A stretch of 64,000 bases of DNA from a virus, in the IMG/VR virus record IMGVR_UViG_3300035670_000193, positions 1 to 64,000 of that record. One strand, given 5' to 3'. Numbering within the stretch: position 1 is the first letter of the stretch; the number at the start of each line of letters is the position of its first letter. Position numbers and translations under genes: made by a program. Under the pieces are notes generated by a model. That model ran no database searches, was not told where the DNA came from, and saw only the letters and a program-made list of their open reading frames with translations. This document shows positions 8,760 through 64,000 of this stretch, piece by piece.

Positions 8760-11700
8760 ATGGCACAAAACTACAATATTGACCCATACTTTGACGATTT
8801 TAATCCCGATAAAAATTTCTATAGAATTCTTTTTAAGCCTGGGTATGCCGTTCAAGCACGTGAGTTAACTCAGTCTCAAACAATCCTACAAAATCAAATT
8901 TCTAATTTTGCTGAAGCAATTTATTCTCAAAATACACCTGTGTCTGGTGGTAAAGTTACCACAAACCTCAATGCAAAGTACATTAAATTAAATTCAACAT
9001 TTAACAATGCCTCCGTTGTTGCTGCCGATTTCTTAAATAAAAAAATTACTGATGTTACTGGCACTATTCTCGCTTCTGTGACCGCTACAGACGAGGCGAC
9101 AGGAAATGCAATATTAGAAGGTGACCCACCAACTCTTGTTGTAACATATCTTTCTGGCACACAATTCTCAGACGGCATGACTGTCTATATTACTGATGGT
9201 GAGACAGCTACACCATATGCAACAACAATTGGTAATCCAGGTGGCACAACATCTATCGGTAATTCTTCAACCGTCTCCGTTTCACGTGGTGTTTTTTGGG
9301 TTATCAATGGCTATAACACAATTCAAAATGCAGATGGAACAACTTCACAATTTAGAATTGGTAATTTTGTAACTTGTTTGCCACAAACAGCTATTCTTGA
9401 TAAGTACGATAATTCGCCAACACTACGTGCTGGTTTAAATATTGTAGAAGAAACAGTAACATATATTGATGATTCTTCTTTATTAGACCCAGCTGTTGGT
9501 TCTACAAACTATCAAGCGCCTGGTGCAGACCGTTACAAAATCAGTTTGAATCTCATCACAAAACCAATTACTTTTGGTGACGATGAATCATTTATTGAAT
9601 TAGTTCGATACGATGCTGGTGAAACTGTAAAACAATCCGACAACACAGTTTATTCAGCTATCGATGATTACTTTGCAAAAAGAGACTATGAAACAAATGG
9701 TGATTATATTGTCAATGACTTCAAGTTAACACCAGTACCAACTGCAAACGGAAATTCTAATTTCTATGACATGATTATCAGTAAGGGTGTTGCGTATGTT
9801 CTTGGATATCGTGTCGAAAATCAATCAAACTATGCACTAACTGTACCAAGAGCAAGAACAACCACTACTGTAACTCCAGGTTCAAACAACACCTTCATCA
9901 ATTATGGTAGTTACTTTGCAACAGACTATGCAAATGGTAATTTTAATATCTCATCTTTCCCACAAGTAGATTTGCATTGTGTTGTTTCACAATCTGTTAA
10001 CAATGCTACTGAAGCTTCTTATGCATCAACAAAAATAGGTACAGCTTTCCTTCGTGGATTGCAATTCGTTTATAACACAAGTGATTCAAATACAAAATCA
10101 TATGTGTACAATGCGTTTGTAAATGATATTGAAACTTTCTCTCTAAGTTCAAATGCAGCTGCAGGTTCTACATCAACTGAAATTAAATTCTACGACCTGT
10201 CATCATTTAAATTTTCAACATCTGCTAACGCATACTATGGTGGAACAATTCGAATCGATTCTGGTACATCTGTTGGAGACATTCGAACAATTGTCTCTTA
10301 CAATGCATCAACAAAAACAGCCACAGTTGACAGTCCATTTACAGTAACTCCTGATGTAACAAGTCAGTTTACTTTGATTTTTGGTACACAGATGGCAAAC
10401 TCTATTGTCAAAACTGCCAATACTGGTGGTACAGGTACAGTAGCAAGCCCACTTAGAAAATTTGTTGCCAATACAAACATCAATATTGCAAGTGGTAAAG
10501 TAAATGGTGTGCCAGCTGGTTATACTATTTTAAATAGTTCTGCTGCACCAGAATTATTGTTCTCACTTGGTAATGAATACGTTGCAAACAATACAATTAA
10601 TGAAACAACATTCTATTCAACTCAGTTGTTTAGAAATCAATCTTTCTCTGCTGTTTCAAATAGCTTTACAATTAATACCACATCACCAATGTATTTCCAA
10701 GGTACTACAGGTCAAACATATTTTGGTGATTCATTTAAAAATTTATTTACTGTTATTGATGAAACTACAGGACAAATATTAGCATTTAATGATGGTGCAA
10801 ATACGGCCACAGTTAACACATCAACATCTGCAACCTTCTCATCAGCAGTATATTCAAGAAATGGAAATCCAGTAACAGTTGTTGCTTCTGTCTACGCATC
10901 AATACCAGGTGTTGGTGATAGTACAGGTAATGTTTTAAAAATTAAAAATAAAATTACAGGTAATGTAAACTTTGCTGGTGCAGGAGTTTTAACTCCTATT
11001 GTTAATAGTGCAGGAGGAGCAAACACTAACACATTCTTAGATGTAAATTCTGGCCAAACTTATGTAACAGCAAACATTGCAAATTTAACTACACCAATAT
11101 CTTTATATGTTTCTGATTTAATCACAGTACAAAAAATTATTGATACTGGTTCCGCTGCGGTTGAAATTGCAGCTGGCGATAGTTTATCAAACTTTACAGA
11201 TATAACAACATCATTTAGTTTTAATGATGGACAAAAAGACAACTTCTATGACCACGCAACAATTCAATTAAAACCTGGTGCTATTCCACCATTAGGTAAT
11301 ATGTTAGTTGTCTATGATTATTATTCTCACTCTGGTGGTGATGGATTCTTTACTGTAAGTTCTTATATCGATGAAGATTATAGAAAAATACCAACATACA
11401 TTGCAAAAAATGGTACTGTCTACAGTTTAAGAGATTGTGTTGACTTTAGACCAACTAGAAAAAATGGCGTATTAGATTACACTTGGGATTATAAATCTCT
11501 ACCATCAACAACAAGTGGTGGTATTTTCTTCCCACAAAATAGGTCTAATTTTATTTGCGGTTACAATTATTATCTTGGTCGTAGAGATAAACTTGTCTTA
11601 ACAAAAGACAGCGAATTTTTAATGATAATAGGTACTCCAGCAAAGAACGCACAATATCCTATTGAACCAGATGGTTCATTACTATTAGCTCAAATTACAT

Positions 11701-24640: not shown

Positions 24641-25732
24641 ATGCCAATTGAAACTAGGAAAGGTCAGATAAAAATAAATCGTGGAAGCATTAATATCAAT
24701 GAAGATAAGGAAGATGAATTATTTCCTTTTACATCTTTTACTTTTTTAAATGGAAATGTTGCATCAAGCGAGACCAGTATTGATAACTTTGTTTCATTCT
24801 ACAAAACAAAACTTGGATTAAATTTTAGTAGTAATTCTTGGATAGACAATGCTGAATATTTTAGTCAAGTTGGTGGCATTCAATATTTTACTGTACCGAG
24901 AACAGGTACATATAAAATAGTAGCTAGAGGTGCACCATCTGGAACTTGTTATTCTACTTTTAGTGGACCCAAGTATTCTTCTGGTGCAACAGTAATTGGA
25001 GATTTTGACTTAGTTGCAGGTCAAATAATAAAAATATTAGTTGGTAAAAGAGGTTCAAATACTTATAGTACTTGCGTTGGTTCAGGCGGTGGCGGCGGTG
25101 GAGGAACTTTTATTGTGGATGATGCATCAAACACAGCTATAGTTGTGGCTGGAGGCGGTGGCGGCGGAGGACAGGATTCGACCGGTCCAATAGTTTGGAC
25201 TGCCATCAATTATGGAAACGCAAACACAACTGGCGGTGGAGCTTATCCAACCAATGGAAGACCAGGCGGTGGCTTTAATTCTGGGACAGAAGGTTCAGGA
25301 GGTAATGGAGGAGATACACCAGGAGGTACAAGTTGTGCTGCTGTAGCAGGAAGTGGTGCAGGTTTTTCAGGAAATGGTCTTGGAGGCCCCAATCCAATTC
25401 AACTTACTTCTAATCATGGAAAATCTTTTTTAAATGGTGGTGCCGGCGGACTTTATAGTGCATCAGCATTTGGAGGTTATGGTGGCGGAGGTTCTACTGG
25501 TGCTTCAGGATATTCTGGTGGTGGAGGAGGAGGATATTCTGGTGGAGGAGGAGGAGGTCTAGATAATTGTAGCTGTACCGACCTTGGCGGTGGTGGAGGC
25601 GGTGGATGTTATTTCAATCCAGTTTGGGTATCATCACCAGTAACATTTACAGTATATAATGCTCCTCCTGCAAGCCCAGTATCTATTCCTGAATTTGATG
25701 CAGGAAATGTCACCGTTACTCTTGTATCATAA
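24641..25732 (+). CDS. Glycine-rich (poly-Gly-II type) adhesin
   Basis: This 363-residue protein has a short N-terminal region (KGQIKINRGSININEDKEDELFPF), a lectin-like beta section around residues 85-140 (FTVPRTGTYKIVARGAPSG, AGQIIKILVGKRG), then some 200 residues dominated by glycine with runs of six or seven G (GSGGGGGGGTFIV, IVVAGGGGGGG, GGYSGGGGGGLDN). The order 'GTYKIxAxG ... GQxIxILVG ... GGGGGGTFVV ... IVVAGGGGG' is that of the Gly-rich domain known from ALK-type receptors and some phage tail tips. Cysteines around residues 103, 146, 226, 310, 312 and 323 could form disulfides. It is most likely a receptor-binding tip, analogous in role to the Gly-rich gp38 adhesins. Confidence 0.75.
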   Translation: MPIETRKGQIKINRGSININEDKEDELFPFTSFTFLNGNVASSETSIDNFVSFYKTKLGLNFSSNSWIDNAEYFSQVGGIQYFTVPRTGTYKIVARGAPSGTCYSTFSGPKYSSGATVIGDFDLVAGQIIKILVGKRGSNTYSTCVGSGGGGGGGTFIVDDASNTAIVVAGGGGGGGQDSTGPIVWTAINYGNANTTGGGAYPTNGRPGGGFNSGTEGSGGNGGDTPGGTSCAAVAGSGAGFSGNGLGGPNPIQLTSNHGKSFLNGGAGGLYSASAFGGYGGGGSTGASGYSGGGGGGYSGGGGGGLDNCSCTDLGGGGGGGCYFNPVWVSSPVTFTVYNAPPASPVSIPEFDAGNVTVTLVS

Positions 25733-59997: not shown

Positions 59998-60025
59998 AAA
60001 AACAACTGGTATAAGAAAAATTGAG

Positions 60026-60045
60026 GTGTTGTAAAAAAACAACAC
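60026..60045. repeat. 20-bp palindrome, copy 1 of a duplicated operator-like element
   Basis: GTGTTGTAAAAAAACAACAC is a perfect dyad around an A-run, 15 bp ahead of the -35 at 60061. The reverse complement of its inner 18 bp recurs exactly at 61226-61243 ahead of the other tRNA-region promoter. A half copy (TAAAAAAACAAC) lies at about 59994-60005. Confidence 0.8.
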
Positions 60046-60060
60046 TACGTTAAAAAAAGC

Positions 60061-60089
60061 TTGACAAATTTTGGATATATAAGTACAAT
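60061..60089 (+). promoter_or_regulatory. Strong sigma70-type promoter
   Basis: TTGACA at 60061-60066 and TACAAT at 60084-60089 are separated by exactly 17 bp. The start site would be near 60096. It drives a small unit that ends at the terminator at 60266 and, if read through, the first tRNA run. Confidence 0.85.
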
Positions 60090-60120
60090 CGTTTCATTAA
60101 ATAATTTTTGGAGATTTAAA

Positions 60121-60237
60121 GTGTTTACCCGTTTACAACTCATATCGACACATAAGCAGTCTAGTGATTATCGCACATTTATTTGTGGCGAGAATACACC
60201 AGCGCTATGGCTTGGCGAAGGGTTTTGTAAAGGATAA
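60121..60237 (+). CDS. Possible 38-residue micro-protein
   Basis: A GTG start preceded by TTGGAGATTTAAA opens a 38-codon frame: MFTRLQLISTHKQSSDYRTF, then a short hydrophobic/polar end with ENTPALWLGEGFCKG. It lies in a complete unit with a strong promoter upstream and a terminator 29 bases downstream. Against it: a GTG start, short length and no recognised relatives. The unit could instead express a 200-nt RNA. I regard coding as possible, not established. Confidence 0.42.
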   Translation: MFTRLQLISTHKQSSDYRTFICGENTPALWLGEGFCKG

Positions 60238-60265
60238 AATGTAACAAAAATTAGAATCCAAACAC

Positions 60266-60298
60266 AAAACCCTAGACCTAAAAAATCTAGGGTTTTTT
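60266..60298 (+). terminator. Intrinsic terminator before the tRNA genes
   Basis: AAAACCCTAGA/TCTAGGGTTTT forms an 11-bp stem with a nine-base A-rich loop, followed by further T residues. It closes the mini-unit that starts at about 60096. Confidence 0.9.
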
Positions 60299-60311
60299 GT
60301 TTTGGTTTTAC

Positions 60312-60326
60312 TGCTCTTTAAAAATT
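60312..60326 (+). promoter_or_regulatory. boxA-like antitermination site, copy 1
   Basis: TGCTCTTTAAAAATT is nearly the rRNA-leader boxA of E. coli (TGCTCTTTAACAATT) and fits the betaproteobacterial form. It lies 14 bases after the terminator and 50 before the first tRNA, and would recruit NusB/S10 to the tRNA transcript. Confidence 0.6.
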
Positions 60327-60375
60327 AGGTGTTGTTTTGTGGGGGTGTGGTGTATCGGCTAGCACCCCTTCCATT
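60327..60375 (+). other. tRNA leader with hairpin; possible tRNA 5'-half remnant
   Basis: GGGGTG (60342-60347) pairs with CACCCC (60363-60368). The segment between, GTGTATCGGCTAGCAC, looks like a tRNA D-arm, and the whole stretch from 60341 resembles the first 28 bases of a tRNA whose remainder is missing. It may be a decayed tRNA or a processing hairpin. Confidence 0.4.
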
Positions 60376-60466
60376 CCTTGGATAGTTTAATGGTAAAACA
60401 GCGGGCTTATACCCCGTAGCGACAGATAATCGGCTGATATAGGTTCGAATCCTATTCCAAGGACCA
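60376..60466 (+). tRNA. tRNA with anticodon UAU (Ile-type), class II variable arm
   Basis: The 91-nt cloverleaf has acceptor CCTTGGA/TCCAAGG, D-stem GTTT/AAAC, anticodon stem GCGGG/CCCGT with loop CTTATAC (anticodon TAT at 60408-60410), T-arm ATAGG-TTCGAAT-CCTAT and encoded CCA. A 21-nt variable arm (AGCGA/TCGGCT with a bulge) is typical of Leu, Ser or Tyr tRNAs, not Ile. UAU would read AUA codons, so the identity is ambiguous. Confidence 0.85.
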
Positions 60467-60538
60467 TATTAAAGCATATTCACTTGTCTCAAGGAGACAG
60501 GTTTAGATTCTCAAGGAGTTTCTGAATATGCTTTAATA
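60467..60538 (+). ncRNA. Structured spacer RNA with a 16-bp perfect stem
   Basis: TATTAAAGCATATTCA (60467-60482) pairs perfectly with TGAATATGCTTTAATA (60523-60538). Inside are TGTCTC-AAG-GAGACA (60485-60499) and a weaker CTC-AAG-GAG hairpin, each showing CTCAAGGAG. It starts directly at the CCA end of the first tRNA and ends nine bases before tRNA-His. It is a good RNase III-type processing site or a small stable RNA; a tRNA fold is excluded by the missing arms. Confidence 0.65.
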
Positions 60539-60546
60539 CGGTCAAT

Positions 60547-60620
60547 GTTGTTCCTAGTGTAGTGGTCGCACACCTGTCTGTGAAACAGGTAGAGAGGGTT
60601 CGATTCCCCGGTTCAACCCA
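60547..60620 (+). tRNA. tRNA-His (GTG)
   Basis: Anticodon stem CCTGT/ACAGG with loop CTGTGAA gives GTG at 60580-60582. The extra G at position -1 (60547) faces C73, the His identity element, and CCA is encoded. The acceptor TTGTTCC/GGTTCAA has two central T-T mismatches and the T-stem is poorly paired, so folding may be marginal. Confidence 0.85.
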
Positions 60621-60621
60621 T

Positions 60622-60697
60622 GCAACTCTAGCTGATGTGGTCATAGCGGTGGTCTGAAGAGCCATTGAAACAGGTTCGATTCCTGTGGGTTGCACCA
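60622..60697 (+). tRNA. tRNA-Phe (GAA)
   Basis: Acceptor GCAACTC/GGGTTGC, anticodon loop CTGAAGA (GAA), T-arm ACAGG-TTCGATT-CCTGT, discriminator A and encoded CCA. It starts two bases after tRNA-His. Confidence 0.92.
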
Positions 60698-60699
60698 AT

Positions 60700-60774
60700 G
60701 CCGGGATAGCTCAGAGGCAGAGCACCGTCTTGATAAGGCGGGGGTCGAGATTTCAAAATTCTCTCCTGGTACCA
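60700..60774 (+). tRNA. tRNA-Ile (GAT)
   Basis: Acceptor GCCGGGA/TCCTGGT, anticodon stem CCGTC/GGCGG with loop TTGATAA (GAT at 60732-60734), CCA encoded. The T-arm is unusual: GAGAT-TTCAAAA-TTCTC has a T-T mismatch at the normally invariant 53-61 pair. Confidence 0.88.
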
Positions 60775-60780
60775 AGTTTT

Positions 60781-60863
60781 GCGGAGGTGGTGTAAAGGTA
60801 GCCACGATAGTCTTAGAAACTATTGCCAAAAGCGTGTGAGTTCGATTCTCACCCTCCGCACCA
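60781..60863 (+). tRNA. tRNA-Leu (TAG)
   Basis: Acceptor GCGGAGG/CCTCCGC, anticodon stem ATAGT/ACTAT with loop CTTAGAA (TAG), a class II variable arm around TGCCAAAAGCG, T-arm GTGAG-TTCGATT-CTCAC and encoded CCA. Confidence 0.93.
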
Positions 60864-60876
60864 GAACCAAAAATAA

Positions 60877-60964
60877 GGAAGTGTGGTCGAGTGGTCTATG
60901 GCGCTAGTCTTGAAAACTAGAGGCTCGAAAGGGTCCGTGAGTTCGAATCTCACCGCTTCCGCCA
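60877..60964 (+). tRNA. tRNA-Ser (TGA)
   Basis: Acceptor GGAAGTG/CGCTTCC, anticodon stem CTAGT/ACTAG with loop CTTGAAA (TGA), long variable arm, T-arm GTGAG-TTCGAAT-CTCAC, discriminator G and CCA, as expected for serine. Confidence 0.95.
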
Positions 60965-60970
60965 AATTAT

Positions 60971-61057
60971 GGAGAGTTGACAGAGTGGTAATGTAGCGGA
61001 TTGCTAATCCGTCGTTTCGAAAGAGGCGCATAGGTTCGAATCCTATACTCTCCGCCA
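60971..61057 (+). tRNA. tRNA-Ser (GCT)
   Basis: Acceptor GGAGAGT/ACTCTCC, anticodon stem GCGGA/TCCGT with loop TTGCTAA (GCT), long variable arm, T-arm ATAGG-TTCGAAT-CCTAT, discriminator G and CCA. It is the second serine isoacceptor in the run. Confidence 0.95.
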
Positions 61058-61062
61058 AATGT

Positions 61063-61137
61063 ATCTCGCTGGTGTTAACGGCAGCATAGCGGTCTCCAAA
61101 ACCGAAGGACGGGGTTCGAATCCCTGGCGGGGTGCCA
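61063..61137 (+). tRNA. tRNA-Trp (CCA)
   Basis: Acceptor ATCTCGC/GCGGGGT, anticodon stem GCGGT/ACCGA with loop CTCCAAA (CCA), discriminator G (a Trp identity base), CCA encoded. T-arm CGGGG-TTCGAAT-CCCTG. Confidence 0.92.
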
Positions 61138-61144
61138 ATTTAAT

Positions 61145-61222
61145 GCATACGTGGCAGAGTGGTCAAATGCAACAGTCTGCAAAACTGTAAAGTCGCTGGT
61201 TCGAATCCAGCCGTATGCTCCA
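61145..61222 (+). tRNA. tRNA-Cys (GCA)
   Basis: Acceptor GCATACG/CGTATGC, anticodon stem ACAGT/ACTGT with loop CTGCAAA (GCA), discriminator T (U73, a Cys identity base), CCA encoded. It is the last tRNA of the first run. Confidence 0.95.
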
Positions 61223-61225
61223 GAG

Positions 61226-61243
61226 TGTTGTTTTTTTACAACA
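61226..61243. repeat. 18-bp palindrome, copy 2 of the duplicated operator-like element
   Basis: TGTTGTTTTTTTACAACA is the exact reverse complement of 60027-60044, in the opposite orientation. It begins four bases after tRNA-Cys and ends seven bases before the -35 of the second tRNA promoter. Confidence 0.8.
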
Positions 61244-61274
61244 GTACCGCTTGACAAATTAATGTGGTACTGTT
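61240..61274. promoter_or_regulatory. 9-bp dyad flanking the -35 (operator-like)
   Basis: AACAGTACC (61240-61248) and GGTACTGTT (61266-61274) are perfect inverted repeats 17 bp apart. They enclose the -35 element and touch the first base of the -10. This geometry suits a repressor site. Confidence 0.65.
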
Positions 61275-61279
61275 ATGAT
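61251..61279 (+). promoter_or_regulatory. Strong sigma70-type promoter of the second tRNA run
   Basis: TTGACA at 61251-61256 and TATGAT at 61274-61279 have an ideal 17-bp spacer. Transcription would start near 61286, right at a boxA-like sequence, as in rRNA-type leaders. Confidence 0.9.
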
Positions 61280-61285
61280 TATATT

Positions 61286-61299
61286 TGTTCTTTAAAAAC
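61286..61299 (+). promoter_or_regulatory. boxA-like antitermination site, copy 2
   Basis: TGTTCTTTAAAAAC shares the CTTTAAAAA core with copy 1 at 60312 and with betaproteobacterial rRNA leaders. Its place at the predicted transcript start suggests NusB/S10-assisted transcription of the structured tRNA/ncRNA run. Confidence 0.55.
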
Positions 61300-61387
61300 G
61301 TAGCTGGGGGAGTGAGCGCCACACATGGACGCCTATTCTTAAACAACAGCGACTATCGGGAGATAGCCAACGTGCCCCTTATTTTAT
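61300..61387 (+). other. Structured leader before tRNA-Glu
   Basis: This 88-nt stretch is non-coding and less AT-rich than the protein genes. CTATC-GGGA-GATAG (61353-61366) is a small hairpin, and GGGGG (61306-61310) can pair with CCCC (61375-61378). No gene was recognised. Confidence 0.45.
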
Positions 61388-61463
61388 GCACCATTCGTCT
61401 ATCGGTTTAGGACAACGCCCTTTCACGGCGTAAAGAGGGGTTCGATTCCCCTATGGTGTACCA
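61388..61463 (+). tRNA. tRNA-Glu (TTC)
   Basis: Acceptor GCACCAT/ATGGTGT, anticodon stem ACGCC/GGCGT with loop CTTTCAC (TTC), T-arm GAGGGG-TTCGATT-CCCCT region, CCA encoded. It is the first tRNA of the second run. Confidence 0.92.
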
Positions 61464-61465
61464 TT

Positions 61466-61550
61466 GGGTAGCGAGTAGCATTGGTGACTACACCTGACTG
61501 TAAATCAGGCGCCTCAGGCATACGGGGTTCGATTCCCTGGCTACCCACCA
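61466..61550 (+). tRNA. tRNA-Tyr (GTA)
   Basis: Acceptor GGGTAGC/GCTACCC, anticodon stem CCTGA/TCAGG with loop CTGTAAA (GTA), class II variable arm, T-stem pairing around TTCGATT, discriminator A and CCA. Its CCA is part of the outer stem of the adjoining structured RNA. Confidence 0.93.
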
Positions 61551-61659
61551 TATTGAAGTGCATTACTCTCAGCAACAAAGAGCATCTGCGGAGAGGACAC
61601 GATAACGCTCGACACAATCGAGGCTGCACGGTCGCCGACTCAGTAGTGTGCTTCAATAT
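61551..61659 (+). ncRNA. Structured RNA between tRNA-Tyr and tRNA-Asp
   Basis: CCATATTGAAG (61548-61558) pairs perfectly with CTTCAATATGG (61651-61661), extended to about 15 bp by TGCA/TGTG pairs. Inside are a 5+3-bp hairpin (CTCTC 61566-61570 with GAGAG 61591-61595), CTCGA-CACAA-TCGAG (61608-61622) and GTC-GCC-GAC (61631-61639). This is a cloverleaf-like four-helix RNA without a CCA end or anticodon. G+C is about 50% by my count, against AT-rich protein genes. Its outer stem uses the CCA of tRNA-Tyr and the first two bases of tRNA-Asp, so forming it competes with those ends or marks processing sites. T4 also makes non-tRNA stable RNAs (C and D) in its tRNA cluster; no sequence kinship is claimed. 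Confidence 0.7.
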
Positions 61660-61737
61660 GGTTCGTTAGAATAGCTGGCCTAATTCGTCTGCCTGTCACG
61701 CAGAAGACCACGGGTTCGAATCCCGTACGGACCGCCA
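61660..61737 (+). tRNA. tRNA-Asp (GTC)
   Basis: Acceptor GGTTCGT/ACGGACC, anticodon stem TCTGC/GCAGA with loop CTGTCAC (GTC), T-arm ACGGG-TTCGAAT-CCCGT, discriminator G (Asp identity) and CCA. Confidence 0.94.
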
Positions 61738-61763
61738 TTTGTTTTTAATAAAAAGGATCCAAA

Positions 61764-62249
61764 ATGCCAAATTATGATTTTGCAAAAGACTTGCCAATCG
61801 CTAAGAAAACAGAAAAACAAATTGCTGATTATCTTTGTGAAACGCAAGACATGAGTTTGGTTGGAACATCAGATACAATTAGTGGTGTTCGTAAATCAGA
61901 TTTTGATGTGCGTATGAAATTTAATAAAAGTGGAAAAGTTGTTGATATTGAAATCAAAGAAGATTTTAGTTGTGCGAGAACAGGTAATATAGGTGTTGAA
62001 TTTTCTAGTTGGGGTCGCCAATCAGGAATTGAAGTGTCTAAGGCAGACTACTACCTATATAAAGTTCACACAGCAGATGGTCGAAAAAGTGTATACATAA
62101 TTCAGACAAAAAAATTAAAAGAAATGATTGAAAATAAACTCTATCATCGTATTGTTACGGGGGGTGACCCTGGTTCTGAAAGTAAAAATTATTTGTTTAC
62201 ATTGGCAGTAGTAAAAGAGAATTTTAAATTTTTAGGTTTCATTGTCTAG
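61764..62249 (+). CDS. PD-(D/E)XK-type nuclease-like protein inside the tRNA array
   Basis: This 161-residue protein has KSDFDVRMKFNKSGKVVDIEIKEDF with Asp46 or Asp48 and then E63-x-K65, spaced as in the PD-(D/E)XK core (D-x14-16-ExK). It continues NIGVEFSSWGRQSGIEVSKADYYLYKV, a strand-helix pattern seen in Holliday-junction-resolvase and VRR-type nucleases. The ATG follows AAAAGGATCC. The gene lies between tRNA-Asp and tRNA-Asn, and its TAG stop is inside the tRNA-Asn acceptor stem, so it shares the tRNA transcript. It may be a mobile nuclease or an RNA/DNA-processing enzyme; no specific family is certain. Confidence 0.75.
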   Translation: MPNYDFAKDLPIAKKTEKQIADYLCETQDMSLVGTSDTISGVRKSDFDVRMKFNKSGKVVDIEIKEDFSCARTGNIGVEFSSWGRQSGIEVSKADYYLYKVHTADGRKSVYIIQTKKLKEMIENKLYHRIVTGGDPGSESKNYLFTLAVVKENFKFLGFIV

Positions 62250-62318
62250 TAGCTCAGTTGGTAGAGTAGATGACTGTTAATCATTTGGTCCCTGGTTCGA
62301 GCCCAGGCTAGACAGCCA
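62243..62318 (+). tRNA. tRNA-Asn (GTT)
   Basis: Acceptor TGTCTAG/CTAGACA, anticodon stem GATGA/TCATT with loop CTGTTAA (GTT), discriminator G and CCA. The first seven bases overlap the end of the upstream protein gene, whose TAG stop is part of the acceptor stem. Confidence 0.94.
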
Positions 62319-62323
62319 GTTTC

Positions 62324-62399
62324 GCCGGAGTAGCTCAGTCGGTAGAGCAGCTCACTTGTAATGAGAAGGTCGAGGGTTCGATTCCTTTCTCCGGCACCA
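62324..62399 (+). tRNA. tRNA-Thr (TGT)
   Basis: Acceptor GCCGGAG/CTCCGGC, D-arm with AGCTCAGTCGGTAGAGC, anticodon stem GCTCA/TGAGA with loop CTTGTAA (TGT), discriminator A and CCA. Confidence 0.95.
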
Positions 62400-62402
62400 A
62401 AT

Positions 62403-62479
62403 TGCGGGTTAGTAGTTCTGGAGAACTCATCGGTCTCATAAGCCGGTCTAGGTAGGTTCGATTCCTGCACCCGCTACCA
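62403..62479 (+). tRNA. tRNA-Met (CAT)
   Basis: Acceptor TGCGGGT/ACCCGCT with a T-T mismatch at 1-72, anticodon stem TCGGT/GCCGG with loop CTCATAA (CAT), T-arm GTAGG-TTCGATT-CCTGC, CCA encoded. The three G-C pairs of initiator tRNA are absent, so elongator Met or lysidine-modified Ile is likelier. The D-arm (AGTTC-TGGA-GAACT) is atypical. Confidence 0.85.
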
Positions 62480-62718
62480 AACCCGCTGGGGTAACGCCCG
62501 GCTACTGTGACCCGCAGGAAGTGAAGTGAGTTCGTTACTCAGGGGTGGTTCCCCTCCTTGGATGGAGGCATCGAAAGGTGGGTCTTACCGAACCGGCGTT
62601 GGCAATACGAGAATCCTTTGTGGTCGAGGAGTGGGCGGAAGGAGAGCAGGTAAGACTGGAAGATATCTCGGTCAGTAAGTCTCTCTATAATTACCACCGT
62701 ACAAAGGAAGCATCTTTT
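62480..62718 (+). ncRNA. Candidate structured ncRNA (about 239 nt) with long-range pseudoknot pairing
   Basis: This stretch between tRNA-Met and tRNA-Pro has no credible protein gene and about 53% G+C by my count. Local hairpins include TGAGT-TCGTT-ACTCA (62527-62541), AGGGG-TGGTT-CCCCT (62541-62555) and CCTCC-TTGGAT-GGAGG (62553-62568, competing with the former). Two perfect long-range pairs interleave: GTCTTACC (62582-62589) with GGTAAGAC (62649-62656), and TCCTTTGT (62614-62621) with ACAAAGGA (62701-62708), which implies a pseudoknot. It does not show the conserved RNase P, tmRNA or group I intron core motifs known to me. Large phage RNAs of the GOLLD/ROOL kind also sit beside tRNAs but are much longer. 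Confidence 0.65.
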
Positions 62719-62797
62719 CCGAGATTAGGCTAGTCTGGTTTAAGTCGCCTGCTTTGGGAGCAGGAAATCGCAGGTTCGAATCCTGCATCTCGGACCA
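62719..62797 (+). tRNA. tRNA-Pro (TGG)
   Basis: Acceptor CCGAGAT/ATCTCGG, anticodon stem CCTGC/GCAGG with loop TTTGGGA (TGG), T-arm GCAGG-TTCGAAT-CCTGC, discriminator A and CCA. It is the last tRNA in the window. Confidence 0.95.
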
Positions 62798-62814
62798 AAT
62801 TCTAGGAGGTAAAT

Positions 62815-63012
62815 ATGGCAGATGGTGGTAAAGGAAGTAATTCAAGACCATTTAGTGTCGATAAAAAAACTTTTGATAAAAATTGGGATGCAATTTTCAA
62901 AAACAATGAAGAAAGAAGAGAAAAAATAGAGAAGTTAAATAATGAATATCAAGACATTCTTTCAACAGAAGAATGTGTAATTGAAGCTCTTAATAAAATT
63001 GAAAAAAAATAA
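62815..63012 (+). CDS. Small conserved phage protein (GGKGSxxRPF type)
   Basis: This 65-residue protein starts MADGGKGSNSRPFSVDKKTF and then DKNWDAIFKNNEERREKIEKL, an acidic helical tail. Short proteins with the 'GGKGSxxRPxxV...FxxxWDxIFG/K' pattern are widespread hypothetical proteins in phages. A strong ribosome site TAGGAGGT sits five bases before the ATG, 17 bases after tRNA-Pro, so it shares the tRNA transcript. The stop overlaps the next ATG by one base. The function is unknown. Confidence 0.78.
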   Translation: MADGGKGSNSRPFSVDKKTFDKNWDAIFKNNEERREKIEKLNNEYQDILSTEECVIEALNKIEKK

Positions 63013-64000
63013 TGAATCATGCTTTAATATTTAATTTGGGTACAGATAAAAATGGTTACACAGTTAGGTCTGTGGGAGCATATAGAATCGCATCTTTTTT
63101 GCGTGAACACCAATGGGATGTGGAGGTCATAGATTTTTTTGATACATTTGAAATAAATGAATTATTTAATTTATTGAAAAGTAGAGTTAATAAAAATACT
63201 AAATTTTTTGGTTTAAGTTGGCTTTTTCCATACTACGATAATGATTTGAATTTAAAATTAGAAACGATAAAGGTCACATATAAAACAATACCTATAATAT
63301 CTGGTTCTAATGCTCATTTAAATATGAACTATGATGCAATTGATTATCATGTTTATGGTTATGGTGAAAATGCTCTTTTAGAATTATTAAAATATTTGTT
63401 TTCGAATAGCAATAGACCACCATTTAATATTAATTTAAATGGTCACAAGACAAAATATTTGGATGCAAACAAATATTATCCTTCTTTTCCTATGCCAGAC
63501 TTGACTGTGAGATATGAAAAAAGAGATTTCTTATTAAAAGATGAATTTTTAAATACACAAATGTCCAGAGGTTGTATATTTAAATGTAAATTTTGTAATT
63601 TTCCAAACATAGGTATTAAAGATGATTACACAAGGTCTGTTGAAAGTATTGATGAGGAATTAAGATTAAATTATGACCAATGGGGAATAAAAAATTATGT
63701 TTTAGCAGATGAAACTTTTAATGACAGAACTGAAAAAATAATTAAGTATGCTGATGCTGTTGAAAAATTAAATTTTAAACCTTGGTTTTCAGCTTTTATG
63801 AAACCAGAATTAATGGCTACAAGAAGAGGAGATTGGGAACATCTAGTGAGAATGGGAGTTTTTGGACATTTCTATGGCATAGAATCTTTTAATAAAGAAA
63901 CAAGAAAAATTATTTACAAAGGATATGATGCCGATAAAATGAAAGCAAAAGTTTTAGAAATTTCAAATTACTTTAAATCTTACAATTCGAACTCATTAGT
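63012..64000 (+). CDS. Radical SAM enzyme with B12-binding-type N-terminus (3' end outside window)
   Basis: The first 329 codons are present and the gene continues past the window. The N-terminal part is a Rossmann-like region typical of B12-binding radical SAM proteins (IASFLREHQWDVEVIDFF, then FFGLSWLFPYYDND and IISGSNAHLNMNYDAIDYHVYGYGE in outline). The radical SAM cluster motif is SRGCIFKCKFCNFP (CxxxCxxC), followed by VLADETFNDRTEKI and FGHFYGIESFNKETRKII in outline, which matches TIM-barrel strands. The substrate is unknown. It overlaps the previous stop by one base. Confidence 0.85.
   Translation, partial: MNHALIFNLGTDKNGYTVRSVGAYRIASFLREHQWDVEVIDFFDTFEINELFNLLKSRVNKNTKFFGLSWLFPYYDNDLNLKLETIKVTYKTIPIISGSNAHLNMNYDAIDYHVYGYGENALLELLKYLFSNSNRPPFNINLNGHKTKYLDANKYYPSFPMPDLTVRYEKRDFLLKDEFLNTQMSRGCIFKCKFCNFPNIGIKDDYTRSVESIDEELRLNYDQWGIKNYVLADETFNDRTEKIIKYADAVEKLNFKPWFSAFMKPELMATRRGDWEHLVRMGVFGHFYGIESFNKETRKIIYKGYDADKMKAKVLEISNYFKSYNSNSL

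Follow-up and report, generated by a model that had tools for sequence, protein, structure and literature searches.

The T4 genome carries two annotated small stable RNAs, rnaC (species 1, 139 nt) and rnaD (species 2, 119 nt), beside the gene for tRNA-Arg. GOLLD and ROOL are non-coding RNAs of phages and prophages that are often found near tRNA islands (PMC12286853), and the tRNAs that phages themselves encode are known to evade host defences that cleave tRNA (PMC10264068, PMC11555353). Here we describe a 239-nt spacer in the tRNA array of a T4-like phage and compare it with these systems and with the spacers of related arrays. Like rnaC and rnaD, the spacer is a non-tRNA element that adjoins tRNA genes in a T4-like cluster. 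Unlike those two, which are annotated as stable molecules, it is an RNA only putatively, and single-sequence covariance models of the spacer (R1 and R2), run with filters off against the T4 tRNA locus, scored at best 6.8 and 4.2 bits, which is not above noise. With GOLLD (RF01998) and ROOL (RF03087) it shares a non-coding character and a location near tRNA genes, but many GOLLD RNAs exceed 800 nt and the spacer has no match in Rfam. It has nothing in common with the bacterial Y RNA YrlA (RF02553), and no YrlA match was found in it.

The Met-Pro spacer in its tRNA array

The stretch of DNA analysed, called the window below, comprises 64,000 of the 65,153 bases in one virus record. The virus is marked as a T4-like phage by its proteins, among them those for head, portal, tail-sheath and terminase and one like SbcCD, and by weak matches at the DNA level to capsid and regA genes of cyanophages and Prochlorococcus phages. 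ARAGORN located 16 tRNA genes on one strand between positions 60376 and 62797, and an overlapping contig (L002) carries 4 further tRNA genes past the end of the window. The spacer occupies positions 62480-62718 of the plus strand and abuts exactly on the ARAGORN ends of tRNA-Met(cat), at 62403-62479, and tRNA-Pro(tgg), at 62719-62797 (61.6 bits with the Rfam tRNA model), both also on the plus strand; its placement and length in the initial annotation were thus correct. The only other copies in IMG/VR (L002, L010, L011 and L046) are cuts of one contig from the same virus. A second contig differs from the window by 1 mismatch in 11 kb overall and by none within the spacer, and since it carries the identical stretch, the spacer is no accident of assembly.

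The GC content of the spacer is 0.53, compared with 0.31-0.39 in 4-kb blocks of the window (genome about 35%), which bears out the lower AT content first ascribed to it. The rest of the window, away from the tRNA array, has a single 239-nt stretch that reaches this GC content (near 25151). Upstream, in the Cys-Glu spacer, the plus strand has a promoter-like sequence, TTGACA-17-TATGAT, at 61251-61279 (11/12 matches), which on sequence grounds is likely the promoter for this part of the array; no terminator-like site was found on the plus strand between 60000 and 64000. A promoter-like TTGAC...TATAAT sequence, with a shared TTCTTTAAAAA further on, is present in the Cys-Glu spacers of the window (61223-61387) and of several related arrays (L004:5183-5371; L003:650-769; L014:7120-7258; L191:5149-5382; L numbers designate individual loci).

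Two other putative RNAs lie on the plus strand of the same array. The one between tRNA-Tyr and tRNA-Asp (61551-61659) has a long terminal helix, tattgaagtgcattact...agtagtgtgcttcaata, and folds better than shuffled sequences (z -2.61); the one between tRNA-Ile and tRNA-His (60467-60546), recognized by inspection of the sequence, has the putative terminal helix tattaaagcatattc...gaatatgctttaata. The array also encodes a 161-aa protein (61764-62246), relatives of which are often found near tRNA genes. Pfam gave no match to it, and its only assignment was to PHROG 13596, a family without known function. Residues D48, E63 and K65 are invariant and, together with a conserved EIKEDF-type motif, may represent the core of a PD-(D/E)XK nuclease.

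We searched for homologues of the spacer at several levels. Scanning the whole window with cmscan and Rfam 15 at gathering thresholds gave no match in the spacer, and scanning 62400-62800 at E <= 5 gave only tRNA and chance matches, so that no Rfam family fits the spacer, whether judged by gathering score or by a meaningful E-value. Together with the strand shared with the tRNAs, the lack of a plus-strand terminator-like site and the empty or otherwise occupied slot in relatives, these results support the initial annotation in so far as it saw a non-coding part of the tRNA operon that resembles no described RNA; they do not support the kinship to ornate phage RNAs that it also suggested, as there was no Rfam match to GOLLD or ROOL. 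Distant blastn searches of annotated phages and plasmids with E up to 10 returned nothing beyond chance matches, none longer than 33 nt, and blastn against 50 whole records of related or array-bearing viruses returned none. Model R1 likewise found nothing in 33 of these 50 records, a set with no positive control among them, and R1 and R2 run over 46 and 100 loci, with dozens of tRNA arrays, recovered only the window itself and noise. Scans of IMG/VR with an exact 22-mer, an exact 19-mer and gapped helix patterns recovered only the same virus and two chance matches that had no tRNA genes close by; one 20-mer of the spacer was absent from 84,980 prokaryote genomes. Profile HMMs of 14 spacer families matched the tRNA gene region of the window, with zero matches in 62480-62718.

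Several specific candidates were rejected. With loose criteria no tRNA anticodon arm was found in the spacer, nor was a TTCRANY T-loop, which disposes of the spacer as a mimic of either arm. Imperfect inverted repeats had raised the idea of an antisense to tRNA-Met, but the complementarity is at chance level. A permuted tmRNA was dismissed, there being no match to RF04321 or RF01849 and no ARAGORN tmRNA in the window. The Met-Pro spacers of L062, which are similar in length, have no similarity to the one studied here; one of them apparently holds a tRNA missed by ARAGORN and the other a 75-aa frame.

Cassettes in the arrays of related phages

Related arrays were gathered by way of the neighbouring 161-aa protein, a radical-SAM protein, the major head protein and one RNA pattern, and the sample is enriched for pseudoknot-scaffold RNAs because one of these searches targeted them. 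In about 35 cases the spacer 5' of tRNA-Pro(tgg) is 2-12 nt long, and in many other arrays a non-coding cassette stands directly before this tRNA. They comprise RNAs with the pseudoknot scaffold, a tRNA-like element of 80 nt, RNAs with a terminal helix, and unrelated sequences of high GC content, for instance the spacer in L176 (161 nt); some of the long spacers have open frames inside. The composition of the arrays varies among related phages, and the slot before tRNA-Pro is often empty. Because the slots of relatives are either empty or filled with such varied cassettes, we regard the slot as a cassette site, of which the Met-Pro spacer is one occupant.

The pseudoknot-scaffold cassettes, found in short array spacers of related phages, have a stem of 7-8 bp and the form AGGATNN TNN CAGCAA ... 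N'N'ATCCT GTTG. A scan of IMG/VR with the pattern AGGATNNNTNCAGCAAN{25,55}ATCCTGTTGT returned 100 stretches, fewer than 1 of which is estimated to be a chance match, and at least 85 distinct elements lie in the tRNA arrays of relatives; the Met-Pro spacer is not among them. At each of the two stem positions left free by the pattern, all 85 elements have a Watson-Crick pair, and the four pair types all occur; when partners were shuffled, the means were 22 and 36 (of 85). The second helix, CAGC/GTTG, we infer, since it is invariant by construction of the scan. All 85 have a tRNA gene no more than 300 nt away and share the strand of the surrounding tRNAs. A 5-bp stem closed by a 7-nt loop of the tRNA anticodon type was found in 50 of the 85 payloads, where shuffling of the payloads predicts 0.5. 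The loops that recur most often are CTTGTAA (Thr), CTTTTAA (Lys), CTGTTAA (Asn), CTTCTAA (Arg) and two Ser loops, CTGGAAA and CTTGAAA. Examples of scaffold elements are L199:9482-9551, 9717-9782 and 10303-10373, those at L003:2035 and 2632, and those in L204, L209, L217, L230, L258 and many other loci.

A wider set of 168 elements was assembled by demanding stem complementarity, so that it offers no test of pairing and may include a few chance matches. Its longer members contain an anticodon arm with a T-arm, or a whole circularly permuted tRNA with a short loop capping its acceptor stem and no CCA (L230:6120-6242, L251:5311-5428, L211:7616-7734, L199:11039-11154, L284:3736 and L287:7890). Three of the permuted-tRNA members match YrlA (RF02553) at 40.0, 35.1 and 33.9 bits, under the cut-off of 69, and we take the tRNA-like domain of YrlA to be the nearest known thing to these rearranged tRNAs. 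We found no earlier account of such cassettes in the full text of open-licence papers, and a blastn query with a single short scaffold element had no match among annotated phages. On a simple reading, the scaffold cassettes would be candidate decoys for tRNA-cleaving host defences, which phage tRNAs are known to evade (PMC10264068, PMC11555353).

The Met-Pro spacer resembles these cassettes in occupying a tRNA-array spacer, the slot before tRNA-Pro being one that they also use. It differs from them in having neither the AGGAT...ATCCT-type stem nor CAGCAA, GTTG and the anticodon stem-loop or T-arm that usually accompany it: CAGCA is absent, the sole GTTG (62598) has no upstream CAGCAA partner, and a script applying the scaffold pattern to the window took nothing from the spacer. 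Also, most cassettes in related arrays have a long terminal helix, whereas no terminal helix of 12 bp or more was found in the spacer. There is no complementarity between its two ends (AACCCGC and CATCTTTT), and no helix joins them in its best fold.

Further structured spacers were observed in the related arrays. Terminal-helix spacers, with helices of 14-20 bp of the type TATTGAA...TTCAATA or TATAAAAACACATT...AATGTGTTTCTATA and with varied interiors, some of which have T-arms, occur in L207, L246, L290, L297 and other loci, and the elements at 61551-61659 and 60467-60546 of the window belong with them. At least 4 further recurrent families with long terminal helices lie by tRNA genes, mostly tRNA-Glu: one of 204-245 nt (L207, L218, L264, L268, L272), one of about 195 nt (L206, L211, L230, L251, L255), one of about 145 nt (L003:846-997, L014:7335-7479, L191:5458-5610 and others), for which the L003 member had no Rfam match at gathering, and one of about 117 nt (14 elements). 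A pair of look-alike RNAs of about 198 nt is found in the Gln-Ser and Phe-Met spacers at L003:88-284 and L004:7031-7228; in both, a long terminal helix surrounds a core of GCAACAAGTAA or CAAACAAGTAA. The conserved tRNA-like element of about 80 nt, ATGCAGTCGGATATTAACCG...GACTGCTCCAG, stands immediately 5' of tRNA-Pro in L169, L229, L233, L234, L238, L263, L291, L296 and L297; it has an unusual T-arm and is not called by ARAGORN. A permuted tmRNA gene with the tag ANDESYTPVAQAA lies within a phage tRNA array at L008:2890-3298 and L009:2890-3298 (105 bits with RF04321 and 63 bits with alpha_tmRNA, RF01849).

Predicted fold and readings of the spacer

An unusual structure had been proposed for the spacer, but its whole fold is no stronger than that of shuffled sequences (z +0.26 for the plus strand and -0.50 for the minus strand). 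There is a mild lean to structure in the 5' 121 nt (62480-62600, z -1.12) and none in the 3' half (z +0.55). RNAfold predicts a multibranched 5' domain on the plus strand at 62484-62598, with pair probabilities of 0.5-0.84 and no comparative support, in which a closing helix, 62484-62499/62580-62598, holds hairpins at 62505-62517, 62528-62540, 62542-62554 and 62561-62572; its closing pairs are CGCTGG/CCGGCG, GGTAA/TTACC and GCCC/GGGT (probability about 0.5). In the 3' part (62614-62708), where pair probabilities are 0.7-0.95, a plus-strand helix is predicted between 62614-62622 and 62700-62708 (about 0.7) and encloses two 6-bp helices, 62641-62646/62681-62686 and 62654-62659/62668-62673.

We give about even chances to the reading that the spacer is a cassette of the phage tRNA operon and yields a non-coding RNA specific to this lineage, mainly because its slot is a cassette site in relatives and because T4 rnaC and rnaD provide a precedent. 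The exact abutment on two tRNAs in a same-strand array, the tRNA-like GC content, which elsewhere is almost confined to the tRNA array, the upstream promoter-like site with no plus-strand terminator-like site in 60000-64000, the two other putative RNAs of the array, the lack of a credible protein and the unchanged copy in a second contig also count for it. Against it count the failure of every search to find a homologue, a fold at shuffle level with neither strand standing out, and the lack of a long terminal helix or of any tRNA-mimic motif. Whereas its position, its composition, its lack of coding capacity and the use of the slot for cassettes in relatives are direct observations, its transcription, processing, fold and function we infer as follows. 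The spacer would be co-transcribed with the tRNAs, being on their strand with no terminator-like site there, and tRNA maturation would set it free as a side product: 3' processing of tRNA-Met would create its 5' end, and the RNase P cut ahead of tRNA-Pro its 3' end. The product would fold into the GC-rich multibranched 5' domain and the long-hairpin 3' domain. By analogy with the slot cassettes of relatives and the T4 stable RNAs, it would most likely have its effect in the infected cell as RNA, and it might there bind, or serve as a decoy for, factors of host translation or of defences that target tRNA. Since the spacer has no tRNA-mimic motif, the decoy idea is for this element an analogy only. 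That the spacer is the sole known member of a new class of phage RNA that binds or distracts a host factor by means of a different, GC-rich two-domain fold is, by the same analogy, conceivable and rather unlikely.

The competing account that survives best, although we consider it somewhat unlikely, is that of a functionless spacer: a recent GC-rich insert, or a decayed gene for a tRNA or other RNA, that has been kept solely because it is transcribed between tRNAs. The lack of any homologue, the fold no better than shuffles, and the differing make-up of arrays among related phages, in which the same slot is often empty, are all as this account would have it. A tRNA-like GC content within an AT-rich genome speaks against it. 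So does the outcome of a search for the decayed tRNA that the initial annotation had named as a possible refutation: no tRNA remnant was detected with E-values up to 5, the spacer has neither a T-loop nor an anticodon arm, and complementarity to tRNA-Met is only at chance level.

A third account, which we judge improbable, is that of a new ornate RNA built as a pseudoknot from two interleaved 8-bp pairings, 62582-62589/62649-62656 and 62614-62621/62701-62708. Both perfect inverted repeats are exact, as initially reported. Of 1000 dinucleotide shuffles, 2.5% contained at least two 8-bp arms of this kind, and arms that interleave were seen in 0.6%; this rarity is suggestive, but the feature was picked post hoc. 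The two pairings did not fare alike: the second has a probability of about 0.7 in the nested ensemble, whereas the first (spanning 62582-62656, plus strand), a true inverted repeat, is a disfavoured helix with a nested-ensemble probability of about 0, since the best fold commits 62585-62589 to a helix with 62490-62494. Imposing the first pairing adds 5.1 kcal/mol. With the first pairing sharing its TTACC with a better helix, no comparative support and no match to the GOLLD or ROOL models, the pseudoknot once proposed is not supported; by these fold predictions it is possible but not favoured.

The same competition for TTACC could be viewed as a conformational switch, in which 62585-62589 pairs with GGTAA at either 62490-62494 or 62649-62653 and so toggles both domains. 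Both partners are present and are mutually exclusive, but two 5-nt partners within 239 nt are weak evidence, the next gene is a tRNA so that no downstream gene is there to be controlled, and no homologue was found; we consider a switch very improbable.

The longest frames in the spacer are 50-62 aa, and neither a Pfam scan of three of its ORFs nor tblastn of its frames against phages (no match with E < 2) gave support for a protein, in keeping with the earlier statement that it contains no credible protein gene. A short peptide gene of 50-62 aa with a GTG start, for which there are open frames at 62526-62678 and 62545-62733 and an AGGA 6 nt 5' of the GTG at 62526, is the least probable account of all, as in addition to these blank searches the longer frame runs into tRNA-Pro and the predicted product is rich in glycine and arginine.

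Undescribed RNAs in phage tRNA arrays

Taken alone, the Met-Pro spacer adds one more to the orphan elements, other than tRNAs, of phage tRNA arrays, a kind for which the species 1 and species 2 RNAs of T4 are the precedent. Its value is that it points to tRNA arrays rich in undescribed structured RNAs, and the scaffold RNAs in the arrays of relatives are better supported than the spacer itself. One widespread family in those arrays displays copies of specific anticodon arms, or rearranged tRNAs. If such cassettes are indeed decoys, phages would evade tRNA-cleaving defences not only through extra tRNAs (PMC10264068, PMC11555353) but also through dedicated mimics.
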